A stretch of 64,000 nucleotides of DNA, taken from IMG/VR virus record IMGVR_UViG_3300046167_000884, positions 56,009-120,008 of that record. One strand, given 5' to 3'. The position numbers were made by a program, and so were the translations under genes. The stretch comes from a virus. Below, one piece after another: positions 5,961 to 61,087 of the stretch. Numbering within the stretch: position 1 is the first letter of the stretch; each line of letters begins with the position of its first letter. Below the pieces are notes generated by a model. That model saw only the letters and a list, made by a program, of their open reading frames with translations, had not been told where the DNA came from and did no database searches.

Positions 5961-6246
5961 CTTTAATTTAAGAAAATATTTAGCTGAAGGAAAATTACAT
6001 GAAGAACAAGTAATGGGATATGCTGTACTTATAAATGGTAAATTCTATAATAATAAAGTATACAAATCAGAATCAGTAGCTAATGGACAGTTAACTACAT
6101 TACTAGGTGATGTAAAAAGTGAATTAGGTCTTGAAGGTGGAAGAAAAGATCAATATTATTTTGGTACTAAAAAAGGAGATAAAGATTTAGAACAACGTTT
6201 AAAAGATTTAGAACAAGCTAAAGTAGTAGCTGTAACCTATAAATAA
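5953..6246 (+). CDS. Tagged cassette protein 1 (putative injected internal head protein)
   Basis: The product has 97 residues. It begins with the shared tag, here MDNFNLRKYLAEGKLHEEQ. By analogy with T4 internal proteins (MKTYQEFIAE tag, cleaved by gp21 after an L/I-x-E site), the prohead protease would cut after LAE at residue 12. The remainder is a small alpha/beta domain (GYAVLINGKFYNNKVYKSES) ending in a charged helix (DKDLEQRLKDLEQAK). I do not recognise that domain. This is the most divergent full-length tag, with N for D at position 5 and R for K at position 7. It overlaps the cupin gene and is followed after 6 bases by the next cassette gene. Confidence 0.75.
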   Translation: MDNFNLRKYLAEGKLHEEQVMGYAVLINGKFYNNKVYKSESVANGQLTTLLGDVKSELGLEGGRKDQYYFGTKKGDKDLEQRLKDLEQAKVVAVTYK

Positions 6247-6252
6247 AAATAA

Positions 6253-6894
6253 ATGGATAACTTCGATTTAAAAAAATATTTAGCTGAAGGTCGCTTATTT
6301 AAAGAAGAAATAGACTACCCATCTATTAAAGATGAAATGAAAAAAATATATGATATAGATGTAGATCTAGATACCATTAAAGATTTTGTTACATCATATA
6401 ATGATAGTGAGGGTATGGATGTATTTGATACAACGGAACGAGAAGATTTTTATTTATATTTAAAAGATTTAGCTGAAGGCCTCTTATTTGAAGAAGAACA
6501 ATGGTTTGATCCCTCTAGCCCTTCACACGGTAAAGGATATAAAGTATTAGGCGATAAACCACAAGAAGGTGCTTTTTATGTAAGTGGATATGATTTTGAT
6601 AATGATAAAAGCTTTGAATATTATGTACTTGATCCTAATTATAATAAATACCTTACTGCTACCCAAGAATTATTAGGTCTTGCTGATGAACAGGGACACG
6701 AGTATGAAAGTATAGAACAGTATTATGATACAGTTAAAGCTTTTCAAAATGATTTAAGATCTTATGCTAAAGGAGGTAAGTTCGAAGGTGATGAGGTACC
6801 TAATTGGCTTATGCAAGATCTTGCTATGAGTTTTGGAACTGATTATGACCAATTTTATAGTGATGATGAAGACGAAGACGAAGACGATTATTAA
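6253..6894 (+). CDS. Tagged cassette protein 2, with a second internal tag-like site
   Basis: The product has 213 residues. The N-terminal tag is MDNFDLKKYLAEGRLFKEE. A small helical module (residues about 20-65) leads to a second tag-like stretch, YLKDLAEGLLFEEE, at residues 69-82, which again carries LAE before G. Cleavage at both would release a module of about 63 residues and a C-terminal domain of about 138 residues. The latter contains SHGKGYKVLGDKPQEGAFYV and ends in an acidic DDEDEDEDDY run. I do not recognise either domain. The layout suggests fusion of two once-separate tagged cassettes. Confidence 0.75.
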   Translation: MDNFDLKKYLAEGRLFKEEIDYPSIKDEMKKIYDIDVDLDTIKDFVTSYNDSEGMDVFDTTEREDFYLYLKDLAEGLLFEEEQWFDPSSPSHGKGYKVLGDKPQEGAFYVSGYDFDNDKSFEYYVLDPNYNKYLTATQELLGLADEQGHEYESIEQYYDTVKAFQNDLRSYAKGGKFEGDEVPNWLMQDLAMSFGTDYDQFYSDDEDEDEDDY

Positions 6895-9272: not shown

Positions 9273-10569
9273 AAACGTAGTAATGATTGGAGCAGGTGTA
9301 GCAAATGTAAATGCTGCTACCAAGCTAGTTGACAATGGGTTTAAAGGTAAAATCACTATTATTGATATGGGTAAAGACCCATATTTAAGACCTTATGAAG
9401 AGGTAATGACAGGTTTCCTAGGAGCAGGAGGTTGGTCTGATGGTAAATTAACTTATCATACTTCAATTGGAGGGCAATTATCTAAATATTGTGGTGAAGA
9501 AAAAGCAATGGAATTATTTGATCAGGTGATAGATAATTTTAAACGATTCCATCCTAAACCAGAAGAGGTACAATGCTCAAATCCAGTTGCAGAACCAGAT
9601 TTTATTAAACCATATTTCGGTTTACGTTTATTCCCTGTATGGCACGTTGGTACAGATTATTTACATGAGATTGGTAAAAATTGGTATGATTTCTTAGTTG
9701 ATAATGGTGTAGAATTTATTTGGGAAACTAAAGTATATGCTATTGATTTTGTAAATGAAAGGGTATTAGGTAAATCATTAATTAAAGATTTAGAATATGA
9801 ACGTAGGTATGATAAACTCATATTTGGTGTAGGTAAATCAGGTATTGATTTTGGTAAACAATTAGCAGAGGAATATGATCTGCCAACTGAATCTAAACCA
9901 GTACAAATAGGTGTTAGATTTGAAGCACCACAAAAACACTTTCAAAAATTAATTGATGTAAGCTATGATTTCAAATTATATAGAAAATATGAAGACAAAG
10001 GCGTATCACTACGTTCATTCTGTACAAATAATAATGCAGCTTATGTTGCCGTTGAGGAAACATATGGAGATCACAGTTACAATGGACACGCTAAAAAAGA
10101 TGAAGCATTCCGAAATGATATGACCAATTTTGGTATATTAATGGAAGTACAAGGTATTGATAAACCATTTGATTGGTCAAGAGAAGTAGTTAAAAACTTA
10201 CAAATAGATGGTACAGGATTATATTATAGCCCAACACGTAAACCCTCTACAACATCTGAAGGTGTAAATGTATCAGCTATTCAAGTAGATACATTACATA
10301 AAATAGCAAAATCAATGCAACCATACTTTATGTATGTATATGATTTTATTGAGGACATGAAAAAAGTGTTTCCAACATTAAAAGACGATTGGGGTATTTA
10401 TGTACCTGAAGTAAAATATCTATCACCTGAGCCACTTGTCGATTATACCAATTTAGCACTCACCAAGTATCCTAACGTACACTTCGTAGGCGATGCTTTA
10501 TCAGCTAGAGGTATAACGGTAAGTGGTGCACAAGGGACATATGTTGCTGAATCACTTTTGGAGAACTAA
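9262..10569 (+). CDS. FAD-dependent oxidoreductase (COG2509-like)
   Basis: The product has 435 residues. The N-terminus VVMIGAGVANVNAATKLVDN is a Rossmann FAD-binding loop, although the usual third Gly is Asn. Near residue 50, FLGAGGWSDGKLTY matches the GGxSDGKL motif of the COG2509 family of uncharacterised FAD dehydrogenases. The C-terminus (NVHFVGDALSARGITVSGAQ, then GTYVAE) is the second FAD-contact segment. The reaction and substrate are unknown. It is a metabolic-type gene with no obvious partner in the window, on a short operon with a TTCGTATATT box. The start could be ATG 9262 or the following GTG at 9265. Confidence 0.8.
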   Translation: MVSKNVVMIGAGVANVNAATKLVDNGFKGKITIIDMGKDPYLRPYEEVMTGFLGAGGWSDGKLTYHTSIGGQLSKYCGEEKAMELFDQVIDNFKRFHPKPEEVQCSNPVAEPDFIKPYFGLRLFPVWHVGTDYLHEIGKNWYDFLVDNGVEFIWETKVYAIDFVNERVLGKSLIKDLEYERRYDKLIFGVGKSGIDFGKQLAEEYDLPTESKPVQIGVRFEAPQKHFQKLIDVSYDFKLYRKYEDKGVSLRSFCTNNNAAYVAVEETYGDHSYNGHAKKDEAFRNDMTNFGILMEVQGIDKPFDWSREVVKNLQIDGTGLYYSPTRKPSTTSEGVNVSAIQVDTLHKIAKSMQPYFMYVYDFIEDMKKVFPTLKDDWGIYVPEVKYLSPEPLVDYTNLALTKYPNVHFVGDALSARGITVSGAQGTYVAESLLEN

Positions 10570-10873: not shown

Positions 10874-11404
10874 ATGAAAATAGGTTTATGTGGTACAATG
10901 AGTGTAGGTAAAACTACATTAGTAAATGCTTTAAAAGAAACAAAACAATTTAAAGATTATATGTTTAGAACAGAGCGTTCTAAATTTTTAATGGAGCAAG
11001 GTATTCCACTTAATACTGATTCTACATTAAAGGGCCAAACTGTATTTTTAGCTGAACGTTGTGCCGAATTAATCCAAACAGACATTATTACAGATAGAAC
11101 AGTTCTTGATGTTATGGCATTTACTTTAAATGCAAAATCAATAAACCATCAAGATAAAGAAGCATTTGAGACATATGCTAGTGAATTTGTTAGAGAATAT
11201 GATTATATTTTTTACATATCCCCTTATGGGATAGATATTGAAGATAATGGAGTACGTGAAACAGATGAACATTATAGAGATTTAATTGATTTTACTATTA
11301 CAACATTAATTAAAAGACATGGTCATAAAGCAGGTAAATTAGAAAAAATATCTGGATCTACAGAGGAACGTATTCAACAAATATTGAATATTACAGGCCT
11401 TTAA
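10874..11404 (+). CDS. P-loop nucleotide/nucleoside kinase-like ATPase
   Basis: The product has 176 residues. Residues 5-15, LCGTMSVGKTT, are a Walker A P-loop (GxxxxGKT). IITDRTVLDVMAF at about residues 74-86 is in the position of the DR segment of kinases of the NadR/AAA_28 type. The C-terminal helix (GKLEKISGSTEERIQQIL) is typical of this fold. It probably phosphorylates a nucleoside, nucleotide or ribosylnicotinamide; the substrate cannot be read off. It is the second gene of the operon starting at the 10576 box. Confidence 0.65.
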   Translation: MKIGLCGTMSVGKTTLVNALKETKQFKDYMFRTERSKFLMEQGIPLNTDSTLKGQTVFLAERCAELIQTDIITDRTVLDVMAFTLNAKSINHQDKEAFETYASEFVREYDYIFYISPYGIDIEDNGVRETDEHYRDLIDFTITTLIKRHGHKAGKLEKISGSTEERIQQILNITGL

Positions 11405-11405
11405 C

Positions 11406-11420
11406 ATATTTATAATAAAA
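11406..11420 (+). promoter_or_regulatory. Late-promoter-like box
   Basis: ATATTTATAATAAAA, 10 bases upstream of ATG 11431. It is identical to the 3727 copy and opens the operon that leads into the terminase. Confidence 0.55.
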
Positions 11421-11430
11421 CCTTATTATA

Positions 11431-12114
11431 ATGAAAAAATCTGAATTAAAAAATTATATTAGAGAAAATATTATCTCTACATTATCTGAAGATACTGAGG
11501 CAGAAATTGAAAAAACTAAAGAATTAACTTCAGCAATTAAAGATCTTGAAGCTGCTAAAAAAGAAGCTGGTATAGAAGAAGATGCAACCCCTAAAGGTGA
11601 AGATTTTTTTTATGATTATTTAGATATTGGTATGTCTTATTTAGAAGGATTTGGTAAAAAACATTCTTTAGATGACAGTCAGTTAGAAAAACTAGGTAAA
11701 AAAATAGTAGATCAATTATATAAAGGTGATGTTGGTAAAGCATATGATGCTATTGTTAAAAGGGGCTCAATGAAAGAAGCATCATACTCTAATCAATATG
11801 TAAATAAAAATAGGATTGCAAGTAATAAGTATAAACAAGCTAATACTTACAAAAAATCATATGATAGTCTTGCCCAAGTGGCATCAGAAAAACAATTTGA
11901 TGATGATAACATAGATAAAAAAGCTGTTAAAGGGGCTAAAAAAAATAAAGGTTTAGCTAAAGCAGCTGAAGAATTAGCTTTATTAACTCGTGATATGAAA
12001 TCATTGGCTAAAAAGTATTCCAAAGCTGAAGGTGAAGAAAAAGAAAAACTAGTAGCTGATCTTAAGAAAAAAACAAAACTTAAGAAAGAATTAGAAGCTA
12101 TTATAGACAAATAA
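11431..12114 (+). CDS. Lys/Glu-rich helical protein with N-terminal LxE site
   Basis: The product has 227 residues. The N-terminus KKSELKNYIRENIISTLSED looks like a short amphipathic helix ending in an LSE site, similar in style to the cassette tags. The body is helical and highly charged (LVADLKKKTKLKKELEAIID at the end), with a central basic Asn/Tyr/Lys-rich part. I know similar proteins only as uncharacterised products of marine phages. The position before the terminase and the late box suggest a virion or assembly role. Confidence 0.65.
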   Translation: MKKSELKNYIRENIISTLSEDTEAEIEKTKELTSAIKDLEAAKKEAGIEEDATPKGEDFFYDYLDIGMSYLEGFGKKHSLDDSQLEKLGKKIVDQLYKGDVGKAYDAIVKRGSMKEASYSNQYVNKNRIASNKYKQANTYKKSYDSLAQVASEKQFDDDNIDKKAVKGAKKNKGLAKAAEELALLTRDMKSLAKKYSKAEGEEKEKLVADLKKKTKLKKELEAIIDK

Positions 12115-12116
12115 AA

Positions 12117-12500
12117 ATGGAGTCTAAAGAAAGGGTTATTTACATATTAAAAATTATAGTACTATTCTGTATAATATTTTGGTTATTATTTTCAGATGAG
12201 GAAGAGTATGTTGAAGATTATAATGCTAAAATAGTAGCATTAGGACAAAAAGTTGATTCGTTGCATCATATAAATAACGAATTGACTTTTAAAATCGATA
12301 CCTTAAATGGACAAATAACACAATTAGACCAACAAATAAATCTTAAAGATAACAGAATAAATAGCTTAAAATATGAAATTAGTACTAAAGTGGATGCTGT
12401 TGATAACTTTAATGATGATGAGCTTGAAAGGTTTTTCACAGAACGTTACAGACAGTACATCGATTCAGTTAAAAAAACCGATAGCAAAGTTAGTAATTAA
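12117..12500 (+). CDS. Membrane-anchored coiled-coil protein (spanin-like)
   Basis: The product has 127 residues. One N-terminal membrane segment (YILKIIVLFCIIFWLLF, residues about 8-25) is followed by an acidic patch and a long coiled coil (LGQKVDSLHHINNELTFKID, then TLNGQITQLDQQINLKD). This single-anchor coiled-coil layout is that of inner-membrane spanins (Rz type) of phages of Gram-negative hosts, though the sequence is not recognisably Rz. The gene after it has the mirror layout, a coiled coil with a C-terminal membrane segment. A role in lysis or envelope disruption is inferred. Confidence 0.55.
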   Translation: MESKERVIYILKIIVLFCIIFWLLFSDEEEYVEDYNAKIVALGQKVDSLHHINNELTFKIDTLNGQITQLDQQINLKDNRINSLKYEISTKVDAVDNFNDDELERFFTERYRQYIDSVKKTDSKVSN

Positions 12501-12517
12501 AGATTTAATTACGGGTG

Positions 12518-12787
12518 ATGGGAGCTAAAAAAGAGTTAGCTTTAACATTAGATAAAATTAATTTTTTAGAACAAAAAATAGTTCTAAAAGATAGTATTAT
12601 TTTTAGTTTAAATACCCAAGTAGGGAATTTTGAATCTATTATGCTTACTAAAAGTGACCAATTAGCTTTATCCCAAAAATTATCTAAAAGACTTCAAACC
12701 GATTTAAAAAAGCAAAAATTAAAAACTAAATTAATGGGTGGTGCTGGTTTAGTGGCTATTGCTGGGGTAATTCTTATATTAAAATAA
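12518..12787 (+). CDS. Coiled-coil protein with C-terminal membrane segment
   Basis: The product has 89 residues from ATG 12518; a GTG one codon earlier is an alternative. The coiled coil (ALTLDKINFLEQKIVLKDSI) covers the first two thirds, then a basic stretch (LKKQKLKTKLMGG) and a C-terminal hydrophobic anchor (AGLVAIAGVILIL). With the preceding gene it forms a pair of small membrane coiled-coil proteins just before the terminase. The pair may act as spanins, but no lipobox is present, so a standard outer-membrane spanin is not supported. Confidence 0.55.
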   Translation: MGAKKELALTLDKINFLEQKIVLKDSIIFSLNTQVGNFESIMLTKSDQLALSQKLSKRLQTDLKKQKLKTKLMGGAGLVAIAGVILILK

Positions 12788-12790
12788 TAT

Positions 12791-14362
12791 ATGTCTGATT
12801 TAAAAAAAGTAATACGCCAAGAATATCTAAAATGTGCTCAAGACCCAGTACATTTTATGCGTAAATACTGTTATATACAGCACCCACAACGTGGTCGCAT
12901 ACAATTTAATCTATACCCATTTCAAGAAAAAGTATTAACGTTAATGCGCGATAATCCATATTCGATTATCTTAAAATCTAGACAGTTAGGGATATCAACA
13001 TTATCAGCAGGTTATTCTTTATGGTTAATGGTATTCCACAAAGACAAAAACATACTTTGTATAGCGACAAAGCAGGAAACTGCTAAAAACATGGTTACAA
13101 AGGTAAAATTTATGTATGAAAATTTACCTTCATGGCTTAAAGTAGATGCAGCTGAAAATAACAAATTAACACTAAGATTAGTAAATGGGTCCCAAATAAA
13201 AGCCACATCAGCATCAAGTGATGCAGGTAGATCAGAAGCAGTATCCTTACTACTAATTGATGAGGCAGCATTTATTGATAACATTGGAGAGATTTGGGCC
13301 TCAGCACAACAAACATTAGCAACTGGTGGTGGGTGTATAGCATTATCTACACCTTATGGTACTGGTAACTGGTTTCATCAAACATGGGTTAGAGCTGAAT
13401 CAAGTGAAAATCAATTCTTACCTATTAAATTACCTTGGTACGTTCACCCTGAACGAGATCAAAAATGGAGAGACCAACAAGATGAATTATTAGGTGATCC
13501 TAGAATGGCGGCCCAAGAATGTGACTGCGATTTTAGTACTTCAGGTGATATTGTATTTTATCCTGAATATATAGACTTTTATGAAAAAACATATGTAAAA
13601 GATCCTATGGAAAGAAGGGGTGCGGATCAAAATTTATGGGTTTGGGAATCACCTGATTATACAAGAGATTATGTTATAGTAGCTGATGTAGCTCGTGGAG
13701 ATGGAAAAGATTACTCAGCATGCCATGTAATTGATGTTGCAAGTAATACACAAGTTGCTGAATATAAAGGTCAATTAGGTACAAAAGAATATGGTCATTT
13801 ATTAGTTGGACTAGCAACTGAATATAATGAAGCAATGTTAGTAATAGAAAACGCTAATATAGGATGGGCAACAATACAAGTAGCTTTAGATAGACAATAT
13901 CCTAACCTTTACTATTCACAACGGAGTGACTCCCCAAATGCTAGTTCGTATTTTGATAAATATCAAGACCACTCCAAAATGGTAGCTGGTTTTACAATGT
14001 CTTCTAGAACAAGACCTATGGTAATAGGCAAATTCCAGGAGTATATTAGTGATAAAGGAGTAACAATTCAATCAAAAAGGTTGATAGAAGAAATGAAAAC
14101 CTTTATATGGAAAAATAATAGAGCAGAAGCCCAAAGTGGGTACAATGATGATTTAGTAATGTCCTTTGGAATTGCTATGTATATTAGAGACACTGCTTTA
14201 AGATTAAGACAACAAGGGTTAGAAGCAACTAAAAACTCTTTAAATAATATGACTGTAAATAGAACAGCATATCAAGGTAGTTATGGTTTTTCAAAAGGAG
14301 CAGATAATCCTTACCATATTGATACTAAAGATGGTAAAGAGGATATTAGGTGGCTTCTATAG
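12791..14362 (+). CDS. gp17: Terminase large subunit (T4 gp17-like)
   Basis: The product has 523 residues. It packages DNA into the prohead with ATPase and headful nuclease domains. Residues about 57-70 (IILKSRQLGISTLS) are the variant Walker A. SLLLIDEAAFID at about 154-165 is Walker B with the catalytic Glu. LSTPYGTGNWFH contains the ATPase coupling motif. VIVADVARGDGKDYSACHVI at about 296-315 begins the RNase H-fold nuclease, with the first catalytic Asp. Late-gene order then follows T4 with the portal next. No small terminase subunit is recognisable upstream. Confidence 0.93.
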   Translation: MSDLKKVIRQEYLKCAQDPVHFMRKYCYIQHPQRGRIQFNLYPFQEKVLTLMRDNPYSIILKSRQLGISTLSAGYSLWLMVFHKDKNILCIATKQETAKNMVTKVKFMYENLPSWLKVDAAENNKLTLRLVNGSQIKATSASSDAGRSEAVSLLLIDEAAFIDNIGEIWASAQQTLATGGGCIALSTPYGTGNWFHQTWVRAESSENQFLPIKLPWYVHPERDQKWRDQQDELLGDPRMAAQECDCDFSTSGDIVFYPEYIDFYEKTYVKDPMERRGADQNLWVWESPDYTRDYVIVADVARGDGKDYSACHVIDVASNTQVAEYKGQLGTKEYGHLLVGLATEYNEAMLVIENANIGWATIQVALDRQYPNLYYSQRSDSPNASSYFDKYQDHSKMVAGFTMSSRTRPMVIGKFQEYISDKGVTIQSKRLIEEMKTFIWKNNRAEAQSGYNDDLVMSFGIAMYIRDTALRLRQQGLEATKNSLNNMTVNRTAYQGSYGFSKGADNPYHIDTKDGKEDIRWLL

Positions 14363-29168: not shown

Positions 29169-32100
29169 AATTTTTGCACATGGTAGTTATATAGGAACAA
29201 CAGGATATAATAACCATACAAGAGCAATTTACAGGGAACTTTCTAATCTTTATGATTTAAAGGTTAGGAATTATACTGTAGGTAAATCATGGGAAGGACA
29301 TAATGAAGAACCCCATAATGGAGAAGATTATATTGATGGTTTAGATAAAAAATTATTAGTTGAACAATCCCTTTGGGAAGAAGATAAATTAATTCATAAA
29401 TCTTTTTATAATAATTACCCTAATAGTTTTGATCATAATGTAAATATAGTTTTAAATGAAACAAATCATCATTTCTTTTATCAAAATTACGATGGTCCTA
29501 AGATAGCATATAATGTTTGGGAGTCTACAAGACAACCAGAAGAGTTTTTTAACCAATTAAAAACATTTGATCAGGTTTGGGTTGCCTCAAAATGGCAAAG
29601 GGATTGCACAATTGAGCAAGGTATTGACCCTACTAAGGTAAAAGTAGTACCCGAAGCTGTAGATGGACTTACATTTAGACCAAATTCACAAGTTACTTTA
29701 CCTGAATATAGTGATAAAAGATTTAAATTTGTTTTATTTGGTAGATGGGACTATAGAAAGGCAACAAAAGAAGTAATAGAATCTTTCCTACAGGAGTTTA
29801 ATGAAGATGAACCCATTGATTTAATAGTATCAATTGATAACCCATATGCTAAAGATAAATTTAAATCAACCGAAGATAGATTAAAACATTACAAATTAAA
29901 TGACCCCAGGGTCAAAATAAAACATTTTCCTACCAGAGAAGAATATATAAATTATTTACAAAAAGGTCATGTATTTTTATCTTGTGCTAGGGCTGAAGGG
30001 ATGGAATTTACCCTTAATTGAAGCTATGGCATGTGGTACCCCATCAATATATTCTAACTGTAGCGCCCAATTAGAATTTGCAGAGGGACTAGGGTTACCT
30101 GTAAATATAAAATCTACATCAGAAGCAAAACTAGGGGAATATAGTAGTTTCTCTCAATCTTTATTAGCAGGGGAATTTTATGAACCTGATTTTGACCATT
30201 TAAAAAAGGTAATGAGAGATGCTTATGAAAATTATAAACACCATAAACAAAAAGCATTAGAAGAATCTAAAATAATTAGAGAAAAGTTTACTTGGGAAAA
30301 TGCTGCTAAAATAGCAGGCAAAGAAATAGAAAATTTATTAGATAATTTACCTAAAAATAAGGTAGAAGTAAGTTTTGATTTAGGACCTAAAGTAGAAGTA
30401 TTAGGACACCATAAGAATAAATATTTTGTTGAGTTTATAGATGGTAATACTAATGAAGTTATACATAGTGATACCATAAGTAATAATATGTGGACTAAAT
30501 GTAGTAAAAGTTATCACATTCCTTGGGTTATAAAAGTAAACGGAAAAATAATTCATGTTTTTTCCCTTAAAGATAAAACTGTTAAAATATCTTTAGAGTC
30601 AAGGTCTATAGGAGATACTTTAGCATGGTCTCCCCAAGTAATAGAATTTGCAAAACACTATAAATGTAAAGTTATACTTAGTACTTTCCATAATGATTGG
30701 TTTGAATCTCTAGAAGAATACAAGGATATTACTTTTATAAAACCAGGAGAAGACTGTTCATATTATGCTAGTTTTCAAATAGGATGGTTTAGAGATGAAA
30801 ATAATGGGTGGAAAAATTTTAATGACCACCCAACTCAAGTAAATACAATTCCCCTTATTCAAGCGGCTACTGATATTTTAAGAATACCCTATAAAGAATT
30901 ACATTATGGTATTAATTTTACACCGAAAAAAAGACCTATAAAAGGTAAATATATTTGTATAGGGCCTAGATCAACCTCTGGGTTAAAAGAATGGCCTTAT
31001 GAACATTGGAAAAATTTAGCAAAAAAACTCCATAGTAAAGGGTATAAAATAGTTAATTTATCTAGAGAAGGATTTAAAGGAGTAAATATAATAGATAAAA
31101 AGAATTTAAAATGGGAAGATACATTAAATCATCTTTACCATGCAGATTTATTTATTGGTCTAGGGTCAGGTCTATCTTGGTTGAATTGGGTTTTAGATAA
31201 ACATACTGTAATGATAAATAATTTTATCCCTTATGGTTATGAATTTACTAATCATTTAACTAAAATTGAAAATAATTCTGTTTGTAATAATTGCTGGGTA
31301 AGTAAAACCCACATATTTGATAGTGGAGATTGGGATTGGTGTCCAGAACATCAAAATACTAAACTACAACATATTTGCCAAAAATCAATATCAACGGAGC
31401 AAGTATATAATAAAGTTTTAAACCTTCTAGAACCAAAAAAAAAAGATAATTTTATATGGATAACAGGAGGTGATGAATCTTATCTTCCTATGATAGAGGT
31501 ATTAGCTAAAAGTTTATTAAAATATTCTAAATATAAGTTAATTGTATATGGGTTCAATTGTGATTCAAATATAGAATTACCTAATGTAATTAATAAAAGG
31601 ATAGATTACAGACCAAAACCTCCAACTTCTAGTAAGTATGAGTCTGATCTATTTAATAAAGATTACTCTATTTATTTTGCTAAATATTTAGCTAGTTTAG
31701 ATTCATTAAATGAAAACTATGATAATTTTGCTTGGATTGATGGTGATGCTTTTGCAACTGAAAACATTGATACTTCATTACACCATTTAAATAATTTAGA
31801 AGATTATCCTTTATTTATGAGATACTTCCATGAAGATATTAACCAATGGAGGTATCATAATAATATAAAATTAGAAGGAAACTATGGGGGTGAATTAGCT
31901 TTTATTAAAAATTTAACTAGAAACCCTAATCAAAGAATTATAGCTACTGGTTTTTACTTTTATAATAAAAATAGTAAAATATTTTTTGAAAAATGTTTAA
32001 AATGGAACCGGGAATTAAATAATTATAGTGTAAAAGTATATGCTGATGATAATGCCTTTTCTGAAGAAAGAGTAGCAAATAATGTTTTATGGGAAGAAAA

Positions 32101-32872
32101 TAAACAGAATTATCTCCCAGTTACTTGGAATAACTATTATAGTAGTATTGAAGAAAGAAAGACAAATAATTATTTTTTAAACCAAGGATTTGATGTTATG
32201 TATGATGAATATACTTTAAAACCTTATTTTATTCATGGACCCGATCCTTCTGTTAAAAGTAAAGATGCTAATACCTTATTAAAAGCATTTAAAGACTACC
32301 AAATAAACAAATTAATGATAGTAGCACATCCTGATGATGAATTAATATTTGGGGGAGCAGAATTAATACAACATGGTCCAGAATACAAAGTAATTTGTCT
32401 TACCAATAAATCTAATAAAACACGAAGTAAAGAATTTGAACAAGTAATGGGAAAATTAAATGTTGGTTCTTGGGAAATGTTAGATTATGAAGATAAGTTA
32501 GATTCTACTGAAGAATTTAATTTAAATGATATTTTAAGTTATAAAAATTGGAAAAAAATTGTTACCCATAACCCAATAGGAGAATATGGTCACCCACAAC
32601 ATAAATTAATTTTTGAATCTGTAAAGAGATTTACTACTAATTTTTATGTTTTTGGGAAATCCAATGTAAAATTATCTCAAGATATTTTAAATAATAAATT
32701 AGAAACCCTAAAATTATATAAATCAGAACAATCTATTATAAACCAAATTCAAACTAAAAAGGGTGATTGGTTTAAAAGTAATTCTGATACAAATTATATA
32801 GAATATGAGTCTATTACTAAGTATAATAAAAATAAAGATATAACCCCTTATATAGCATGTTATGACAAATAA
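29149..32872 (+). CDS. Giant four-domain glycan enzyme (GT4-like, heptosyltransferase-like, GT8-like, PIG-L deacetylase), frame broken once
   Basis: This is 1240 residues after removing one extra G at 29998-30000 (join CARAEGWNLPLIEAMACGTP). Domain 1 (about 1-400) is a GT-B glycosyltransferase: FDQVWVASKWQRD, VPEAVDG and the EAMACGTPSI loop. Domain 2 (about 470-765) resembles heptosyltransferases of the autotransporter O-heptosyltransferase type: RSIGDTLAWSPQ, FIGLGSGLSWLNW, and a Cys cluster CNNCW, DWCPEH, HICQKS that would bind iron. Domain 3 (about 765-1050) has a DxD-type WIDGDAFATENID as in GT8/GT-A enzymes. Domain 4 (from about 1055) is a LmbE/PIG-L deacetylase: MIVAHPDDELIFGG. It is probably cytoplasmic and assembles and deacetylates a glycan on a phage or host target. 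Confidence 0.8.
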
Positions 32873-53451: not shown

Positions 53452-54809
53452 CACTAAACAGCATAAACCAGTACGGACACGATTTTCAAATAAAGGTTTT
53501 ATCATCTTTATTAACTCATAAAGAATTTTTAGTTAATATACATGATATAATTTCTGATGAGTATTTTGAAAACCCAGCACAGAAATGGGCTATAAAAGAA
53601 ATACTTAAGTATTATGACAAATATCATACTACCCCTTCTTTAGACATACTTAAGGTTGAATTACAAAAAGTAGATAATGAGGTACTACAAATTTCTATTA
53701 AAGAACAACTTAAAGAAGCATATGTAACTTCAGATGAAGATTTAGAATATGTTCAAGAAGAATTTACTAATTTTTGTAAAAACCAACAATTAAAAAAGGC
53801 ATTAATGTCTTCTGTTGATTTACTTAAAGGGGGTGATTTTGATGGTATTCGTTTTTTAATTGATAATGCATTAAAATCAGGACAGGATAAAAATTTAGGG
53901 CATGAATATATTAAAGATATTGAATCGAGGTATAGAGAAAATTCAAGAGAAACTGTTCCAACCCCTTGGGATAAAATTAATAACTTATTACAGGGTGGAC
54001 TTGGAAATGGAGATTTTGGTCTCATATTTGGTAATCCAGGAGGTGGTAAATCTTGGTCATTAGTAGCATTAGGAGGACATGCTGTTAGATTAGGATATAA
54101 TGTACTACATTATACTTTAGAATTAGGAGAAGATTATGTTGGAAAAAGATATGACGCTTTCTTTACTAAAATACCAGTTAATAAAGTAGATGCACATAGA
54201 GATAAAATTGAAGAAATCATACCACAATTACCAGGTACTCTAATTATTAAAGAATACCCAACGGGTAAGGCAACAATCTCAACTATTGAATCTCATATTG
54301 CGAAAGCAACAAGTATGGGATCCAAACCTGATTTAGTAATTATTGATTATGTTGATCTTCTTTCATCAAGAAAGAAAAATAGAGAACGTAAGGATGAAAT
54401 TGATGATATTTATACAAGTACTAAAGGATTAGCTAGGCAACTTGATATCCCTATTTGGTCAGTTTCTCAAGTAAATAGGGCAGGAGCACAGGATAAAATT
54501 ATCGAAGGAGACAAAGCCGCAGGTTCATACGATAAAATGATGATATCTGATTTCGCAATGTCTTTATCACGTAAAAAAGAAGATAAAGTTAATAATACTG
54601 GTAGATTTCATATTATGAAAAACAGGTACGGAATGGATGGTCTTACATTTTCAGTTAACGCTGATACCTCAACAGGTCATTTTGAAGTATTTGATTACAA
54701 TGATAGTGAGGATGAAGAAGAAAACTTAGCTCCACCCTCCCAATCTAATAAGTTTGATACTAATGTTGATAAATTTGATAAACAGTTACTACGTAAAAAG
54801 TTTTTTTGA
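53448..54809 (+). CDS. gp41: Replicative DNA helicase (T4 gp41/DnaB-like), TTG start
   Basis: The product has 453 residues. An N-terminal helical domain (GHDFQIKVLSSLLTHKEFL) precedes the RecA-like core: LIFGNPGGGKSWSLVALGGH (Walker A), LVIIDYVDLLSSRKKNRERK (Walker B) and SVSQVNRAGAQD (sensor). RFHIMKNRYGMDGLTFSV is the conserved C-terminal helicase segment. The best start is TTG 53448, overlapping the preceding stop as TTGA; no in-frame ATG lies near the N-terminus. It unwinds the replication fork. Confidence 0.92.
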   Translation: MTLNSINQYGHDFQIKVLSSLLTHKEFLVNIHDIISDEYFENPAQKWAIKEILKYYDKYHTTPSLDILKVELQKVDNEVLQISIKEQLKEAYVTSDEDLEYVQEEFTNFCKNQQLKKALMSSVDLLKGGDFDGIRFLIDNALKSGQDKNLGHEYIKDIESRYRENSRETVPTPWDKINNLLQGGLGNGDFGLIFGNPGGGKSWSLVALGGHAVRLGYNVLHYTLELGEDYVGKRYDAFFTKIPVNKVDAHRDKIEEIIPQLPGTLIIKEYPTGKATISTIESHIAKATSMGSKPDLVIIDYVDLLSSRKKNRERKDEIDDIYTSTKGLARQLDIPIWSVSQVNRAGAQDKIIEGDKAAGSYDKMMISDFAMSLSRKKEDKVNNTGRFHIMKNRYGMDGLTFSVNADTSTGHFEVFDYNDSEDEEENLAPPSQSNKFDTNVDKFDKQLLRKKFF

Positions 54810-55833: not shown

Positions 55834-57551
55834 ATGGAAAACAACGCATTACAAGCAGATTATACAAATTGGGAAGCAGGAAAAAATTATCCAGAATGGA
55901 TGGATGAAATTTCTTTAGCAACTATTTCTAAAGGTTATTTGTTACCTGGAGAAGATGTAAAAAAAGCATACAGAAGAGTTTCTTACGCTGCGGCCAATAG
56001 ACTTAAAAAACCAGAATTGGCAACCAAATTTTTTAAAATCATGTGGAATGGTTGGTTAGGACTAGCATCACCTGTATTATCAAATATGGGGACTGATCGT
56101 GGTTTACCAATTTCATGTTTTGGTGTTGATACACCTGATTCAATACGTGGAATCGGTTTAACAAACGCAGAACTAATGAAGTTAACCGCCTCTGGTGGTG
56201 GTGTAGGTATATCGCTATCTCGTATTAGAGAACGTGGAACAGGAATTACAGGAAATGGAAAATCTGAAGGTGTAGTTCCATGGGCTAAAATATTTGATTC
56301 TTCAATTATTGCTACTAATCAAGGAAATGTTAGAAGAGGAGCAGCATCTGTAAATTTAGATATTGAACATGGAGATATAGAAGAATTCTTACAAATTCGT
56401 AGACCAAAGGGTGACCCAAATAGACAATGTCTAAACTTACATCAATGTGTTGTAGTAGGAGATTCATTTATGAGAAAATTAGAAGCAAGAGACCCGGAAG
56501 CAATGAATAGATGGGCTACTGTTTTAAAATCAAGAATGGAAACAGGTGAACCTTATATAATGTACAAGGACAATGTTAACAAGGATAACCCGATAGCTTA
56601 TAGACTAAACAATTTAGAGGTTACTATGACCAATATATGTTCGGAGATTACATTATTTACAGATGAAGAACATAGTTTTATTTGCTGTTTATCTTCTATG
56701 AATTTATCTAAATATGATGAATGGAAAGATACTGATGCCGTTGAATTAGCTACTTGGTTTTTAGATGGTGTAATGCAAGAATTTATCGATAAATCAGCTG
56801 GTAAAGATTCATTACAAAGAACTTATAACCATGCTCGTAAGGGACGTGCTTTAGGTTTAGGTGTAATGGGTTGGCATTCATTCTTACAACAAAAAGGATT
56901 ACCATTTAATTCCATAGCTTCTACAGCACACACCCATAATATATTTAATGATATTAGAGGTAAAGCAGAAAAAGCATCTATGGCTTTAGCCCAAGAATAC
57001 GGGGAACCTTTATGGTGTAGAGGAACAGGTATGAGAAATACCCATTTACTAGCAATTGCTCCTACAGTATCCAATTCAGTTATTTGTGGTGGTATTAGTG
57101 CGGGTATTGAACCTTTACCTGCTAATATTTATACATTTAATGGTGCAAAAGGTACTTTTATTAGAAAAAATAAAGTATTACAATCTATTCTAGCTGAAAA
57201 AGGGTGAAGATAAAGATAAATGGTGGGATCAAATGTTAGCCGAAGATGGCTCAGCACAAGGTTTACCTGATAATATCCTAACCCCAGATGAAAAAGAATT
57301 ATTTTTAACATTCCCTGAGATAAATCAATTAGAATTAGGTTAGACAAGCAGCTATTAGACAAAGATATATTGACCAAACACAATCCTTAAATTTATCATT
57401 TGATGTAAATGATTCACCAAAATGGATTAATCAAGTACATTTAGAAGGGTGGAAGTTAGGCATTAAAACATTTTATTATCTAAGAACTGATAGTGTAATT
57501 AAAGGGGATTTAGGTTCTCGTATGGCTGATTGCGTTTCATGTGATGGTTAA
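55834..57551 (+). CDS. nrdA: Class I ribonucleotide reductase, alpha subunit, frame broken twice
   Basis: This is 571 residues after removing one extra G at 57202-57204 and another at 57338-57339. As written it stops at 57207. Active-site residues are intact: LPISCFGVDT, TNICSEITLF (radical Cys with Asn and Glu), ICCLSSMNLS, and in the repaired end FYYLRTDS (radical Tyr pair) and MADCVSCDG (C-terminal Cys pair). The protein begins directly with the catalytic region; there is no N-terminal ATP cone, so it probably escapes dATP feedback inhibition. It is about 190 residues shorter than E. coli NrdA. Confidence 0.9.
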
Positions 57552-57572
57552 AAGAAAAATGAAAAAGAAATT

Positions 57573-57602
57573 AAAAAGGGGTGTATTAACATCCCTTTTT
57601 TT
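57573..57602 (+). terminator. Rho-independent terminator after nrdA
   Basis: AAAAAGGGGTGT (57573-57584), loop ATTA, ACATCCCTTTTT (57589-57600), then TT. A 12-bp stem with one G-T pair, probably bidirectional. It closes the replication and nucleotide operon. Confidence 0.85.
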
Positions 57603-57669: not shown

Positions 57670-58911
57670 ATGAAAAAATTACTTTTACTAGTATTTACCC
57701 TTTTATTAACAACCCCTTCTTTTACCCAAGAACCTGCTGCTTTAGGAAAGAAAAAATTCTTTAAAGATTTATATGAGGATTTCTTAAAGTATGGGACAAT
57801 ATACGGTGCAGGTAGTATATCTAATTCAATACAAGCCGCAGAACCCGTATTTTTTGTAAGAACAGGTGAAGGAGGAACTTTATATGATATACCTAGAGTA
57901 GAAGATAATACCCCTGATTATCCACATGATTATAGATATGGATTTGGTATTAGAAAATTAGCGAGATTTGATTATGAAAGAAAACCTAGAAACTATTACG
58001 ATGGTACAGAAAGTCAGCTAGTATTTTCTGCTCCAACTTCAGCTGTAATAGGATTAGAATACCAATTACATTTAGAAAGAGAAAGATGGATGGGAAGAGA
58101 TTTTCAAAACCATAATATTTTTATAAAACATACTGGTAAATATCATATTTTAAAAATCCAAAGTAGGGAAGTAGGTAAAATTAACCTTGACTATAAATCA
58201 GCAGAAGCAAGATTTAGATTACCTATTGGTAAGAAATTCTCAATATCAGCAGGAGCAATTGCTAGGGGCCATGATAGACCTTATGGTTACAATCCAATAG
58301 AATTATGGTTAAATGAAATGGATATGGACGACCAGGGGAATATGTTTCCTGCAAATCCATGGTTTACATTAGGATATGAATATGGATACCAAGATGTATT
58401 CTATACAGAAACAAGCACAAACCCAGCAACTGGAGAAGAAGAAATAAGAAATGATTGGTATTGGGTAAACTCTAATGGAGATAGAGTAGCAGATTCTGAT
58501 TTAGAATTTAGAGATACTTACTTTACTCGGTTAATGAATAGATACAACCAAGAAAGATGGGCTGAATTAGATCCTTGGATTGAAGTAGCCCCTATAGTTG
58601 GTTTTGATTTTTATCATTATAAAAGAAACTTTTGGTTACATGCTTATGGTAATGTAATCTTACCATATCACCATTATGTTAAAGGAGATGAAGATTATTC
58701 TTATTTACATCGAAATGGATGGGGAATGGGAGGACATAATGCACAACATATGTTAGGTGATGGAGACCAATGGACAGATTACTCAGCTGGTATTAGTTTA
58801 GGAATTAAATTAACAAGACATATTGGTATATTTGCAGAAGGTGAATATGCTAAAATGTGGGATAGCAATTTGTACCAAACAACATTCGGAATTAATTATA
58901 CATTTAGATAG
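57670..58911 (+). CDS. Secreted outer-membrane beta-barrel-like protein
   Basis: The product has 413 residues. The signal peptide is MKKLLLLVFTLLLTTPSFTQ, with a flavobacterial-style SFTQ end. The mature part alternates aromatic and polar residues as in beta-barrels (FRLPIGKKFSISAGAIARG; FDFYHYKRNFWLHAYGNVIL; SAGISLGIKLTRHIGIFAEG). It ends FGINYTFR, close to the aromatic C-terminal signature of outer-membrane proteins. The mature form is rich in Tyr and Trp. It may alter the host surface to block superinfection, or be a virion-released protein, but this is not shown. The lipoprotein gene starts 3 bases after its stop. Confidence 0.7.
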   Translation: MKKLLLLVFTLLLTTPSFTQEPAALGKKKFFKDLYEDFLKYGTIYGAGSISNSIQAAEPVFFVRTGEGGTLYDIPRVEDNTPDYPHDYRYGFGIRKLARFDYERKPRNYYDGTESQLVFSAPTSAVIGLEYQLHLERERWMGRDFQNHNIFIKHTGKYHILKIQSREVGKINLDYKSAEARFRLPIGKKFSISAGAIARGHDRPYGYNPIELWLNEMDMDDQGNMFPANPWFTLGYEYGYQDVFYTETSTNPATGEEEIRNDWYWVNSNGDRVADSDLEFRDTYFTRLMNRYNQERWAELDPWIEVAPIVGFDFYHYKRNFWLHAYGNVILPYHHYVKGDEDYSYLHRNGWGMGGHNAQHMLGDGDQWTDYSAGISLGIKLTRHIGIFAEGEYAKMWDSNLYQTTFGINYTFR

Positions 58912-58913
58912 AC

Positions 58914-59465
58914 ATGAAAAAATTATTATTAATAACATTATTTTTAGGATTATTCTTAGGGTGTGATAAAGATGAAGATCACCATGTAATATTAGAACCA
59001 ACATTTGAATTAGAACTTAATGGTAATAGTGTAAACCCATTTGAATTTTATAGAGTAGTAAATACTTATGGAGGTATAAAAGAAGAAAATGGAGTTATAA
59101 CTAAACTTTTTGTTCTTTATCTTCAAAGAGATGAAGGTAATCCAAGATTAGATGTTGAACATTTTGCTGTAATATTAAAAGATGTTGATGGTTTGGATAA
59201 TGGTCAATTATTAGATGTAGGCCTATATGAAAATCCTATTGTATCCCCAAAATCAACAGAACTAGAAATACCAGGAGATCAAGATTATATAGTATATGCA
59301 ACAACAACAGTTGCAGATGTACATGGTGGTCTTATATGTTTAGATGCAGAAGGAGAATTTTGGAATCCATACCAACAATCCTTTTATACAGTTAAAGCAA
59401 AATTAGAAAATTACCCAATAGGACAAGATGTTGAAGCAACACCTTATGCCTATTTATTAAATTAA
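58914..59465 (+). CDS. Lipoprotein with Bacteroidota surface-export signal
   Basis: The product has 183 residues. MKKLLLITLFLGLFLGCDKD is a lipoprotein signal peptide with lipobox LFLGC. The mature start CDKDEDHH has the acidic/Lys pattern of the Bacteroidota lipoprotein export signal, which directs lipoproteins to the cell surface. The body is beta-rich (TFELELNGNSVNPFEFYRVV), including a conserved-looking RLDVEHFAVILKDVDGLD segment. It could coat or block receptors or help in lysis. Co-transcribed with the beta-barrel gene. Confidence 0.72.
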   Translation: MKKLLLITLFLGLFLGCDKDEDHHVILEPTFELELNGNSVNPFEFYRVVNTYGGIKEENGVITKLFVLYLQRDEGNPRLDVEHFAVILKDVDGLDNGQLLDVGLYENPIVSPKSTELEIPGDQDYIVYATTTVADVHGGLICLDAEGEFWNPYQQSFYTVKAKLENYPIGQDVEATPYAYLLN

Positions 59466-59472
59466 AAAAAAT

Positions 59473-59757
59473 ATGGCACAACAAATAGGAGAAGATACTA
59501 AAGTAACATTAGACCTAAAAACTATAGGGATGATAGTAGGATTTACACTTACTTTAGCAGGTATGTATTTTTCTTTAAAATCAGATATAGCATACGCTGC
59601 TACACAACCAGAACCAGTTATTGAAAGAGTTGAATATGACTTAAAGGATGAGCTGATTCGTCAAACTATAATGGATACTCAAGAAGATGTAGAAATGATT
59701 CTAGAAAAAATGGAAAAGTTAGAAGAACGTCTTTATGAATTATCTAAAAACCAATAA
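59473..59757 (+). CDS. Small membrane protein with coiled coil
   Basis: The product has 94 residues. A short polar start (QQIGEDTKVTLDLKT) leads to a single membrane segment (IGMIVGFTLTLAGMYFSL, about residues 18-36) and a coiled coil (MILEKMEKLEERLYELSK). The layout is that of many phage lysis-cluster membrane proteins, such as single-span holins or antiholins, but no family signature is present. It is followed by the thioredoxin-like gene, whose ATG overlaps the last codons region (59759). Confidence 0.6.
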   Translation: MAQQIGEDTKVTLDLKTIGMIVGFTLTLAGMYFSLKSDIAYAATQPEPVIERVEYDLKDELIRQTIMDTQEDVEMILEKMEKLEERLYELSKNQ

Positions 59758-59758
59758 A

Positions 59759-60178
59759 ATGAAAAAACTAATATTTATTCTATTTCTTTTATTTACCACC
59801 CAAATATATTCCCAATCAGAAGTTCCAGATAAATATTGGTTAGATGATTCTAATTATGAAAAAGTAATTAACGAAAAAGGAGCTTTTGATGATAGTGAAG
59901 AAGAAATTATAGTAGTAGAGTATTGGGCCAAATTTAATAGAGTAAATTGTTTTGCTAGTTGGGAAAAATTAAAAAATGTTACTTACTATCGTGTAGATAT
60001 TGCTAAATCTCCATTAACAAAGAAAAAATATAGAGTTAGAATGGCGCCTACTTTATTTGTTATTAAAGAGGGAATAATAGAATATAAGTATAAAGCAGGT
60101 CTAGATTTATTAGTACCTGTTACTTTAAAAGAATTACAAGCAGACATTGATGAACTTAAAAAGTCAAGTCAGTTTTAA
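59759..60178 (+). CDS. Secreted thioredoxin-like protein lacking CxxC
   Basis: The product has 139 residues from ATG 59759, chosen because it begins a signal peptide (MKKLIFILFLLFTTQIYSQ). The mature domain has a thioredoxin-type pattern: IIVVEYWAKFNRVNCFASWE where TlpA-like proteins have WCxxC, then YYRVDIAKSPLTKKKYRVRM and APTLFVIKEG (the cis-Pro loop). Only one Cys remains at the active site, so disulfide exchange is unlikely. It may be a periplasmic binding or inhibitor protein. A late-promoter-like box overlaps its stop. Confidence 0.65.
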   Translation: MKKLIFILFLLFTTQIYSQSEVPDKYWLDDSNYEKVINEKGAFDDSEEEIIVVEYWAKFNRVNCFASWEKLKNVTYYRVDIAKSPLTKKKYRVRMAPTLFVIKEGIIEYKYKAGLDLLVPVTLKELQADIDELKKSSQF

Positions 60179-60217: not shown

Positions 60218-60472
60218 ATGTTAAACAAATTAAAACAAAAATGGATGGCATTTAGAGATATTTTTAATGATAAGAATGATATAAATGAAAAAACCGTAGT
60301 TGGTTTTGCTTCATTTGCTATCATGACTATATTTGCAATAGCAGATTTAGTAACTGGATATTTTGGAAAAGATTTAGTAATTAATGAATTTATATATGAT
60401 TCATTTCTATTTATTACCTTAGGTAGTTTTGGTATTGCTGAGTTAGGTACTATTTTTAAGAAACGAAAATAA
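60218..60472 (+). CDS. Holin candidate
   Basis: The product has 84 residues. A basic N-terminus (LNKLKQKWMAFRDIF) is followed by two membrane segments (VVGFASFAIMTIFAIADLVT and FLFITLGSFGIAELGTIF) and a basic end (KKRK). Size, two-span layout, a late-type box and the endolysin-like gene 6 bases downstream fit a class II holin. No experimentally defined family is recognised. It would permeabilise the inner membrane at lysis. Confidence 0.6.
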   Translation: MLNKLKQKWMAFRDIFNDKNDINEKTVVGFASFAIMTIFAIADLVTGYFGKDLVINEFIYDSFLFITLGSFGIAELGTIFKKRK

Positions 60473-60478
60473 AATATT

Positions 60479-61087
60479 ATGAATTGTTATACAAGAGAAC
60501 AAATCGAGTCTACAATGAAAAGTAAAGGATATAAATACTTTACTGGAGGAGAATATGATGTAAATATTATTGGAGTTAGAAACTCAGAAACTAAAAATAG
60601 AGTAACTAATGCTTTCGATGATTGCATGACATTATCTTATAAAATAGAAGGTGAATGGCAATTCCATTGCTTCAAATGTACTACTGATCCTGGAACACAC
60701 TGGGTAGAGAACGTATTGAATGATAAAGGAGTTGCAATATTAAAGCCAGGTCAATATAGAGGTTCACATAAATTAAGATTGCACCAAGGTAAGTACTTAG
60801 CTTTAGGTCAACAAAAACCAGTCAAAGTATATAGAGATAATAATAGAGATAACAAATATGATCTATTAGAAGAAAATGTACACGAAGGCATATTTGGAAT
60901 CAACATCCATAGAGCAACTAGCAGATCAGGTGGTACTTCTACTCGAATAGATAAATGGTCAGCTGGATGTCAAGTAATAGCTGATAATGATGATTGGCAT
61001 GAATTTCTAGATATATGTCAAACTGCAAGAGAAATTTGGGGTAACTCTTTTACATATACTTTACTTGAATCTAAAGATATAGTATAA
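60479..61087 (+). CDS. Endolysin candidate with L,D-transpeptidase-like active site
   Basis: The product has 202 residues. The C-terminal half contains GIFGINIHRATSRSGGTSTR and DKWSAGCQVIADNDDW: a His followed by a SxGC motif, as in YkuD-type L,D-transpeptidases (HxxxSxGCxR), though the final Arg is Gln-Val here. A similar WSAGCQ segment occurs in phage proteins of this type. It probably cleaves or edits peptidoglycan cross-links. It lies directly behind the holin candidate and lacks a signal peptide, as expected for holin-released enzymes. Confidence 0.6.
   Translation: MNCYTREQIESTMKSKGYKYFTGGEYDVNIIGVRNSETKNRVTNAFDDCMTLSYKIEGEWQFHCFKCTTDPGTHWVENVLNDKGVAILKPGQYRGSHKLRLHQGKYLALGQQKPVKVYRDNNRDNKYDLLEENVHEGIFGINIHRATSRSGGTSTRIDKWSAGCQVIADNDDWHEFLDICQTAREIWGNSFTYTLLESKDIV

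Follow-up and report, generated by a model that had tools for sequence, protein, structure and literature searches.

Why does a phage carry a tight cluster of genes for envelope proteins, and what do these proteins do together? Such a cluster lies at positions 57670-60178 of the 64,000-nucleotide stretch of viral DNA analysed here (the window), which comprises bases 56009-120008 of the 120,008-base IMG/VR virus record IMGVR_UViG_3300046167_000884. According to the original prediction, it encodes three exported proteins, i.e., a β-barrel-like outer-membrane protein (OMP), a lipoprotein with the surface-export signal CDKDED and a thioredoxin-like protein without CxxC, accompanied by a small membrane protein; these were suggested to serve superinfection exclusion or surface remodelling in Bacteroidota hosts, or to assist outer-membrane rupture. 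All four genes were confirmed as open reading frames (ORFs) and by models and profiles. They are tightly ordered on the plus strand, and because they have hundreds of relatives and ratios of nonsynonymous to synonymous substitution rates (dN/dS) well below 1, they are more than chance ORFs. However, the three exported proteins had to be rejected as the unit, since the lipoprotein (c47) is present in a minority of loci. The conserved unit consists of the OMP (c1), the small transmembrane (TM) protein (c2) and the thioredoxin-like protein (c3), and c47 is an accessory. We propose, giving the idea about an even chance, that c1, c2 and c3 form a complex across the envelope late in infection and that this complex disrupts the outer membrane of the host when it lyses, i.e., that they do a spanin-like job without being homologous to spanins. 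The genes in question are:

57670..58911, plus strand: c1, OMP of 413 amino acids with a signal peptide and Gln at the cleavage site
58914..59465, plus strand: c47, accessory lipoprotein of 183 amino acids with the lipobox LGC and the surface-export motif CDKDED
59473..59757, plus strand: c2, inner-membrane protein of 94 amino acids, probably N-in, C-out, with a single TM segment near the N-terminus and a charged, helical tail at the C-terminus
59759..60178, plus strand: c3, exported thioredoxin-fold protein without CxxC (59735 is where the ORF opens; the alignment of most homologues begins at the second Met, which makes 59759 the likelier start)

A conserved trio of envelope genes

Scanning viral contigs with the OMP gave 73 pattern matches, 67 of which encode a relative and make up the first set of loci. 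Partner genes, called there by ORF clustering and tblastn, were found in 65 (c2) and 62 (c3) of the 67 loci. One or both partners are missing from five loci (L004, L012, L024, L057, L058), all of which are cut by a contig end, and the trio is complete in every one of the 67 as far as the contig reaches. With c2 as bait, at least 600 pattern matches with at least 527 relatives were obtained; among the best 80 loci, 79 were checked (L029 was set aside), and both c1 and c3 are present in 74 of them. c3 is missing from three further loci where the available DNA ends, and c1 from L185 where it begins. Finally, an OMP-profile scan matched 514 stretches with 472 relatives; 78 of the best 80 were newly numbered loci, and both partners are present in 75 of these, the other 3 being cut. 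These three sets share contigs and are therefore not independent. In genome collections, only five loci were found, one in a Bacteroidetes metagenome-assembled genome and the remaining ones in contigs that had been binned with archaea or Alphaproteobacteria; the family thus looks viral. Duplications were seen as well: L013 has two tandem c2 copies (11233-11822), and L056 has two c2-c3 pairs (9317-9963 and 12388-13013), one ahead of the OMP gene and the other after the holin gene.

The trio is under purifying selection, with median dN/dS values of 0.119 for c1 (112 pairs), 0.065 for c2 (97 pairs) and 0.089 for c3 (47 pairs). The corresponding values for other genes are 0.155 for c47 (5 pairs), 0.065 for nrdA (145 pairs), and 0.023 (59 pairs) and 0.094 (16 pairs) for c7 and c22, two endolysin-related families described below; the pairs share sequences and are not independent.

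Properties of the three proteins

Besides its signal peptide, c1 has an AlphaFold model that forms a barrel of ~12 strands, with moderate confidence (mean predicted local distance difference test score, pLDDT, of 70), and it is thus predicted to be an outer-membrane β-barrel. The closest structural neighbours in VIA-align are outer-membrane barrels, namely Tsx (Z 13.6, root-mean-square deviation 4.1, 190 aligned residues), KdgM (Z 12.4), NalP (Z 11.8) and OMPLA (Z 11.0), with NanC and LpxR also among the neighbours by fold. No Pfam family exceeded its cut-off for the window c1, and a PDB profile search with the OMP alignment gave nothing at E ≤ 5. Membership in PF24653, the cyanophage Phage_OMP family, was rejected (14.3 bits compared to a cut-off of 27, E 0.049; the cyanophage ORFs are small). 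The best match among viral structures is A0A516LKJ4 (E 1.7e-25, 24% identity), which may be a protein of Tenacibaculum phage PTm1, in which the OMP profile found nothing.

c2 consists of one N-terminal TM segment followed by a helical, charged tail of 60-76 residues. Charges on the N-side of this segment outnumber those on the C-side in 19 of 31 sequences, equal them in 11 and fall below them in one, a bias that favours the N-in orientation. Marginal PHROG matches link c2 to a holin (phrog_1296, best E 7.2e-5) and to an Rz-like spanin (phrog_739, best E 0.023). They also include tape-measure proteins, as helical tails give, and c2 was therefore not classified by homology as a plain holin or spanin.

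The thioredoxin fold of c3 is indicated by a score above the Pfam PF00085 cut-off (25.6 compared to 23.5 bits) and by matches of the c3 profile (A2) to thioredoxin domains in the PDB (best E 1.3e-11). CxxC is present in none of the 33 aligned sequences; Asn stands in place of the first Cys in 21 and of the second in 27 of them, and the conserved proline near the former active site is retained.

Gln occupies the cleavage place in 33 of 36 aligned c1 and in all 33 c3 sequences. This Gln at the signal-peptide cleavage site fits the Q-rule of Bacteroidetes (PMC5837995), and Q-rule-obeying phage proteins were noted earlier in P. gingivalis phages (PMC10367356). The predicted Bacteroidota host is therefore supported.

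Neither the OMP nor the TM protein was found in the cultured phages searched. The OMP (A1) and TM (A3) profiles matched none of nine records of cultured Bacteroidota phages, a search made without a positive control, and when single members were compared by tblastn with 50,697 phage records, no OMP and only two chance matches for c2 were detected. The c3 profile matched in PTm1 (1.4e-4) and immuto (0.0065), at a level that any thioredoxin may give. Among the entries listed in literature searches, no description of the trio or of an OMP with a lysis role was found, and PMC7198788 contained nothing useful on the subject.

Lysis genes next to the trio

The trio occurs in two gene orders. Among the first-set loci, 38 have the order OMP-TM-thioredoxin (1-2-3), 27 have the order TM-thioredoxin-OMP (2-3-1) and two are cut inside the OMP gene. 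A gene for the M15 endolysin c7 (PF08291, 42.7 bits; phrog_894) lies near the trio in 26 of the 27 loci of 2-3-1 order, the sole locus without it, L055, ending within the OMP gene; most 2-3-1 loci furthermore have a gene for the phrog_3427 holin c4 nearby. c7 is also found in five loci of 1-2-3 order (L013, L016, L019, L023, L029). In the window's clade, 13 first-set loci carry an endolysin-like protein, c22, that is unrelated to c7, and a holin candidate, c15, lies near the trio in most loci. Genes of the trio thus adjoin holin and endolysin genes in most lineages, with the exception of the L017 type discussed below. In the window, the trio is flanked by the following elements:

57573..57600, plus strand: terminator-like hairpin with a run of T between nrdA and the OMP gene (12-pair stem with 4 GC pairs)
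60218..60472, plus strand: c15, holin candidate of 84 amino acids that reads as two TM segments, assigned from sequence only (no match in PHROG and Pfam searches)
60479..61087, plus strand: c22, endolysin-like protein of 202 amino acids (phrog_33083 endolysin, E 1.7e-17; phrog_3000, E 1.5e-35; no Pfam match)

As the hairpin follows nrdA, the cassette probably starts its own transcript, although six terminator-like sites in the region compared to a mean of 4.5 in shuffled sequences lend the hairpin weak support. Late-promoter boxes of the type TATAAATA gave no signal (27 compared to 22.8 expected). The upstream nrdA ends at codon 457, and its remainder continues in two other frames when compared to L002 (two frame shifts; window 57190-57560), which is likely due to a sequencing or assembly error or to a broken gene.

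The window phage is contractile-tailed, encoding a tail sheath (phrog_23, E 1.4e-54), portal (phrog_213), major head protein (phrog_138) and large terminase (phrog_2). Its terminase, portal, head and sheath proteins have no relative (E 1e-3) in the loci compared, except for a terminase match in PTm1. As these loci included the whole G018, G020 and G023, the trio is common to phages that differ in structural lineage. Beside the OMP there are often small proteins that are exported or membrane-bound, namely c43 (8 loci; weak VanZ match, E 0.016) and c24 (13 loci), e.g., at 5049-5411 in L044 and 6337-6570 in L035. Elsewhere in the window (29969-32872), a protein of 967 amino acids matches phage glycosyltransferases with its N-terminal 120 residues.

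Lipoproteins and the search for spanins

The accessory lipoprotein reads ...LGCDKDED and fits the pattern C-X-K-(D/E)2-X, which is given in PMC5080379 as the optimum of the lipoprotein export signal (LES) for surface export. In the c47 alignment of 13 sequences (window included), Lys is found at +3 in all and Asp or Glu at both +4 and +5 in 12. Judged by this sequence, a lipobox followed by C-X-K-(D/E)2, c47 qualifies as an LES-type surface lipoprotein, and we regard it as an optional accessory with predicted surface exposure. Its model is β-rich (pLDDT 83.8); no confident PDB match and no Pfam family over the cut-off were obtained. The best Foldseek hit was a fluorescent protein (E 0.026, TM-score 0.13) and the best VIA-align hit was LpqH (Z 7.8, within the range that the tool calls common), from which no family was drawn.

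None of the three core proteins has a lipobox. The trio thus does not contain the lipoprotein that forms the outer-membrane subunit of a two-component spanin, and a u-spanin-type protein, with an N-terminal lipobox and a C-terminal TM segment, is also missing from the cassette. A lipobox scan that recovered all its controls (lambda Rz1, T7 18.7, T1 gp11) detected no ATG-start lipobox ORF in G018 (62.0 kb), G020 (59.7 kb) and G004 (61.9 kb), and one of 46 amino acids in antisense orientation in G023 (66.6 kb). ORFs with TTG starts in the first three (43-61 amino acids) were treated as spurious. No conventional o-spanin or u-spanin was thus found in these contigs. The Rz model PF03245, which mainly reaches lambda-like Rz, matched in none of 30 records at E ≤ 1.

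In other loci, lipoproteins do accompany the trio. Those near c2 include lipoproteins that are c47-like, rich in Pro/Asn/Tyr, rich in Trp/Tyr, or short with lipobox and TM segment. The Pro/Asn/Tyr-rich ones in L230, L241, L228, L208 and L204 have a common V-L-A-x-T-x-x-G-D-T-like start and a composition that recalls proline-rich o-spanins. G000 encodes two lipoproteins, c47 and a Trp/Tyr/Asn-rich one of 252 amino acids at 53586 (13586 in L072), just upstream of the window; a lipoprotein resembling the latter directly precedes c2 in L110 and L124. G032 has one ATG-start lipoprotein and G007 has three, including a lipobox-TM protein of 72 amino acids. The lipoproteins are therefore recurrent but replaceable guests, and the trio is constant.

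Discussion

Because the trio adjoins endolysin and holin genes in most lineages, we favour outer-membrane rupture among the functions that had been predicted, and from this neighbourhood we infer the mechanism. c1 would be exported via Sec and inserted into the outer membrane, c3 would be exported to the periplasm, and c2 would reside in the inner membrane, its helical tail extending into the periplasm. Once the holin and the endolysin have cleared away inner barrier and peptidoglycan, this tail would engage c1, either directly or with c3 as an adaptor, and the membranes would be destabilised or joined. More tentatively, and with somewhat better odds against it than for it, the trio could be a lipoprotein-free, three-protein machine for outer-membrane lysis, in which the barrel replaces the o-spanin and the redox-dead thioredoxin fold acts as a periplasmic coupler, and it might then represent the missing last lysis step in a large group of uncultured Bacteroidota phages.

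Such a system would resemble lambda Rz/Rz1 in having an inner-membrane TM protein with a helical, probably periplasmic tail and an outer-membrane partner, encoded beside holin and endolysin. It differs in that the outer-membrane part is a predicted β-barrel instead of a lipoprotein, in its third, periplasmic protein and in the lack of homology (PF03245, see above). Unimolecular spanins such as T1 gp11 have the same presumed task, but in the window cassette lipobox and C-terminal TM segment are not combined in any one protein; short proteins of this type were encountered only in L157, L167 and G007. c3 shares its fold and the conserved proline with the thioredoxin family PF00085, but it is exported and devoid of CxxC. 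Phage-encoded OMPs are represented by lambda Lom, likened here by description, and by cyanophage Phage_OMP; however, a search of three cyanophages with the A1 profile gave no match at E ≤ 10, and the PF24653 ORFs there comprise 129-172 amino acids. Similarly, c47 carries the motif of Bacteroidota LES lipoproteins (PMC5080379), but it is phage-encoded and belongs to a family without a Pfam match over the cut-off.

Several observations weigh against a lysis complex of c1, c2 and c3. The 15 first-set loci of the L017-type lineage have no recognisable endolysin family within 4 kb of the trio, reversed nrdA/nrdB lie in between, and the holin c4, where present, is ~5 kb away; this layout is evidence against a strict lysis cassette in that lineage. 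One of the 79 checked loci of the c2-bait set, L244, is a real exception, with a c2-c3 pair at 6001-6714 but no convincing c1 (its 106.6-kb record gives no more than a match over 70 positions, E 2.4e-4). The absence of lipobox ORFs applies to the available DNA of records that may be fragments, and an ATG-start lipobox ORF does occur within 3.5 kb of c2 in 42 of 152 non-redundant loci. Some of these ORFs are proline-rich, as o-spanins are, and lipobox ORFs of 61-72 amino acids with a hydrophobic C-terminus in L157 and L167 (198 bases before c2 in both) and in G007 (20262, plus strand) could be short u-spanins. Furthermore, the c2 tail, at 60-76 residues, is short for a segment that would have to reach across the periplasm, and c1, a barrel of ~400 amino acids with many invariant polar and charged residues, may be a channel or an enzyme. 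Distance correlations as a sign of co-evolution revealed nothing beyond common descent (Spearman 0.39-0.48 among c1, c2 and c3 compared to 0.40-0.65 with nrdA; 30 loci).

Phage lipoproteins and barrels with exclusion-type roles, e.g., T5 Llp, are known, and lambda Lom and T1 Cor are annotated in phage records. The barrel and the surface lipoprotein could thus occupy or mask a receptor and block a second phage, with c2 and c3 aiding export or anchoring, and the conserved surface-export motif of the window lipoprotein would suit such superinfection exclusion or surface remodelling. Nevertheless, we consider this function of the cassette unlikely. The lipoprotein is absent from most loci, the trio is kept across different structural lineages near lysis genes, and its strong constraint (median dN/dS 0.065-0.12) is unlike that of an arms-race exclusion protein. 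Exclusion gives by itself no reason for an inner-membrane protein travelling with an OMP. The surface lipoprotein on its own could still serve exclusion, but most loci do without one. A relay that times or inhibits lysis, in which c1 senses a surface event and c3 and c2 pass the signal to the holin in the inner membrane, much as T4 RI acts on T4 T, would account for outer-membrane, periplasmic and inner-membrane parts in the neighbourhood of holin and endolysin genes. A thioredoxin fold without redox activity is suited to protein contacts, and the marginal match of c2 to the phrog_1296 holin points in the same direction. Yet no homology to known anti-holins was seen and the trio is also kept at loci without a recognised holin family in the vicinity, so that we regard a relay as quite improbable.

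The folds closest to c1, i.e., the small channels and enzymes Tsx, KdgM, NanC, OMPLA and LpxR, together with its many invariant charged residues, would agree with a porin or an enzyme of the outer membrane that benefits the infected cell through nutrient entry or lipid change, with c3 as a periplasmic chaperone. A common barrel fold, however, shows no function, and neither the strict tie to a TM protein nor the nearness of lysis genes would be expected; we regard this explanation as about equally improbable. Least probable appears a role as virion or ejection components carried in the particle. The OMP gene does come after giant ORFs of the tail region (~1,900-3,100 amino acids) in the L017 and L013 types, and a phrog_5939 tail protein is encoded just upstream in L044, but lysis genes commonly come after tail genes, and the signal peptides, with the Gln of Bacteroidota at the cleavage site, suggest export through Sec in the infected cell.

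According to PMC6139136, phages without any spanin exist, including two Croceibacter phages and one Bacteroides phage, and the possibility that an OMP acts as o-spanin in such phages was raised there without an example. Among the spanin types detected in Bacteroidetes phages, PMC12596118 reports exclusively u-spanins. If c1, c2 and c3 indeed disrupt the outer membrane at lysis, they would fill this gap. How spanin-less phages break the outer membrane is a question likewise raised in PMC6139136, and the trio is a concrete and widespread candidate for an answer. It ties hundreds of unannotated ORFs of uncultured phages, with 472 relatives of the OMP in a single scan, to one likely process.

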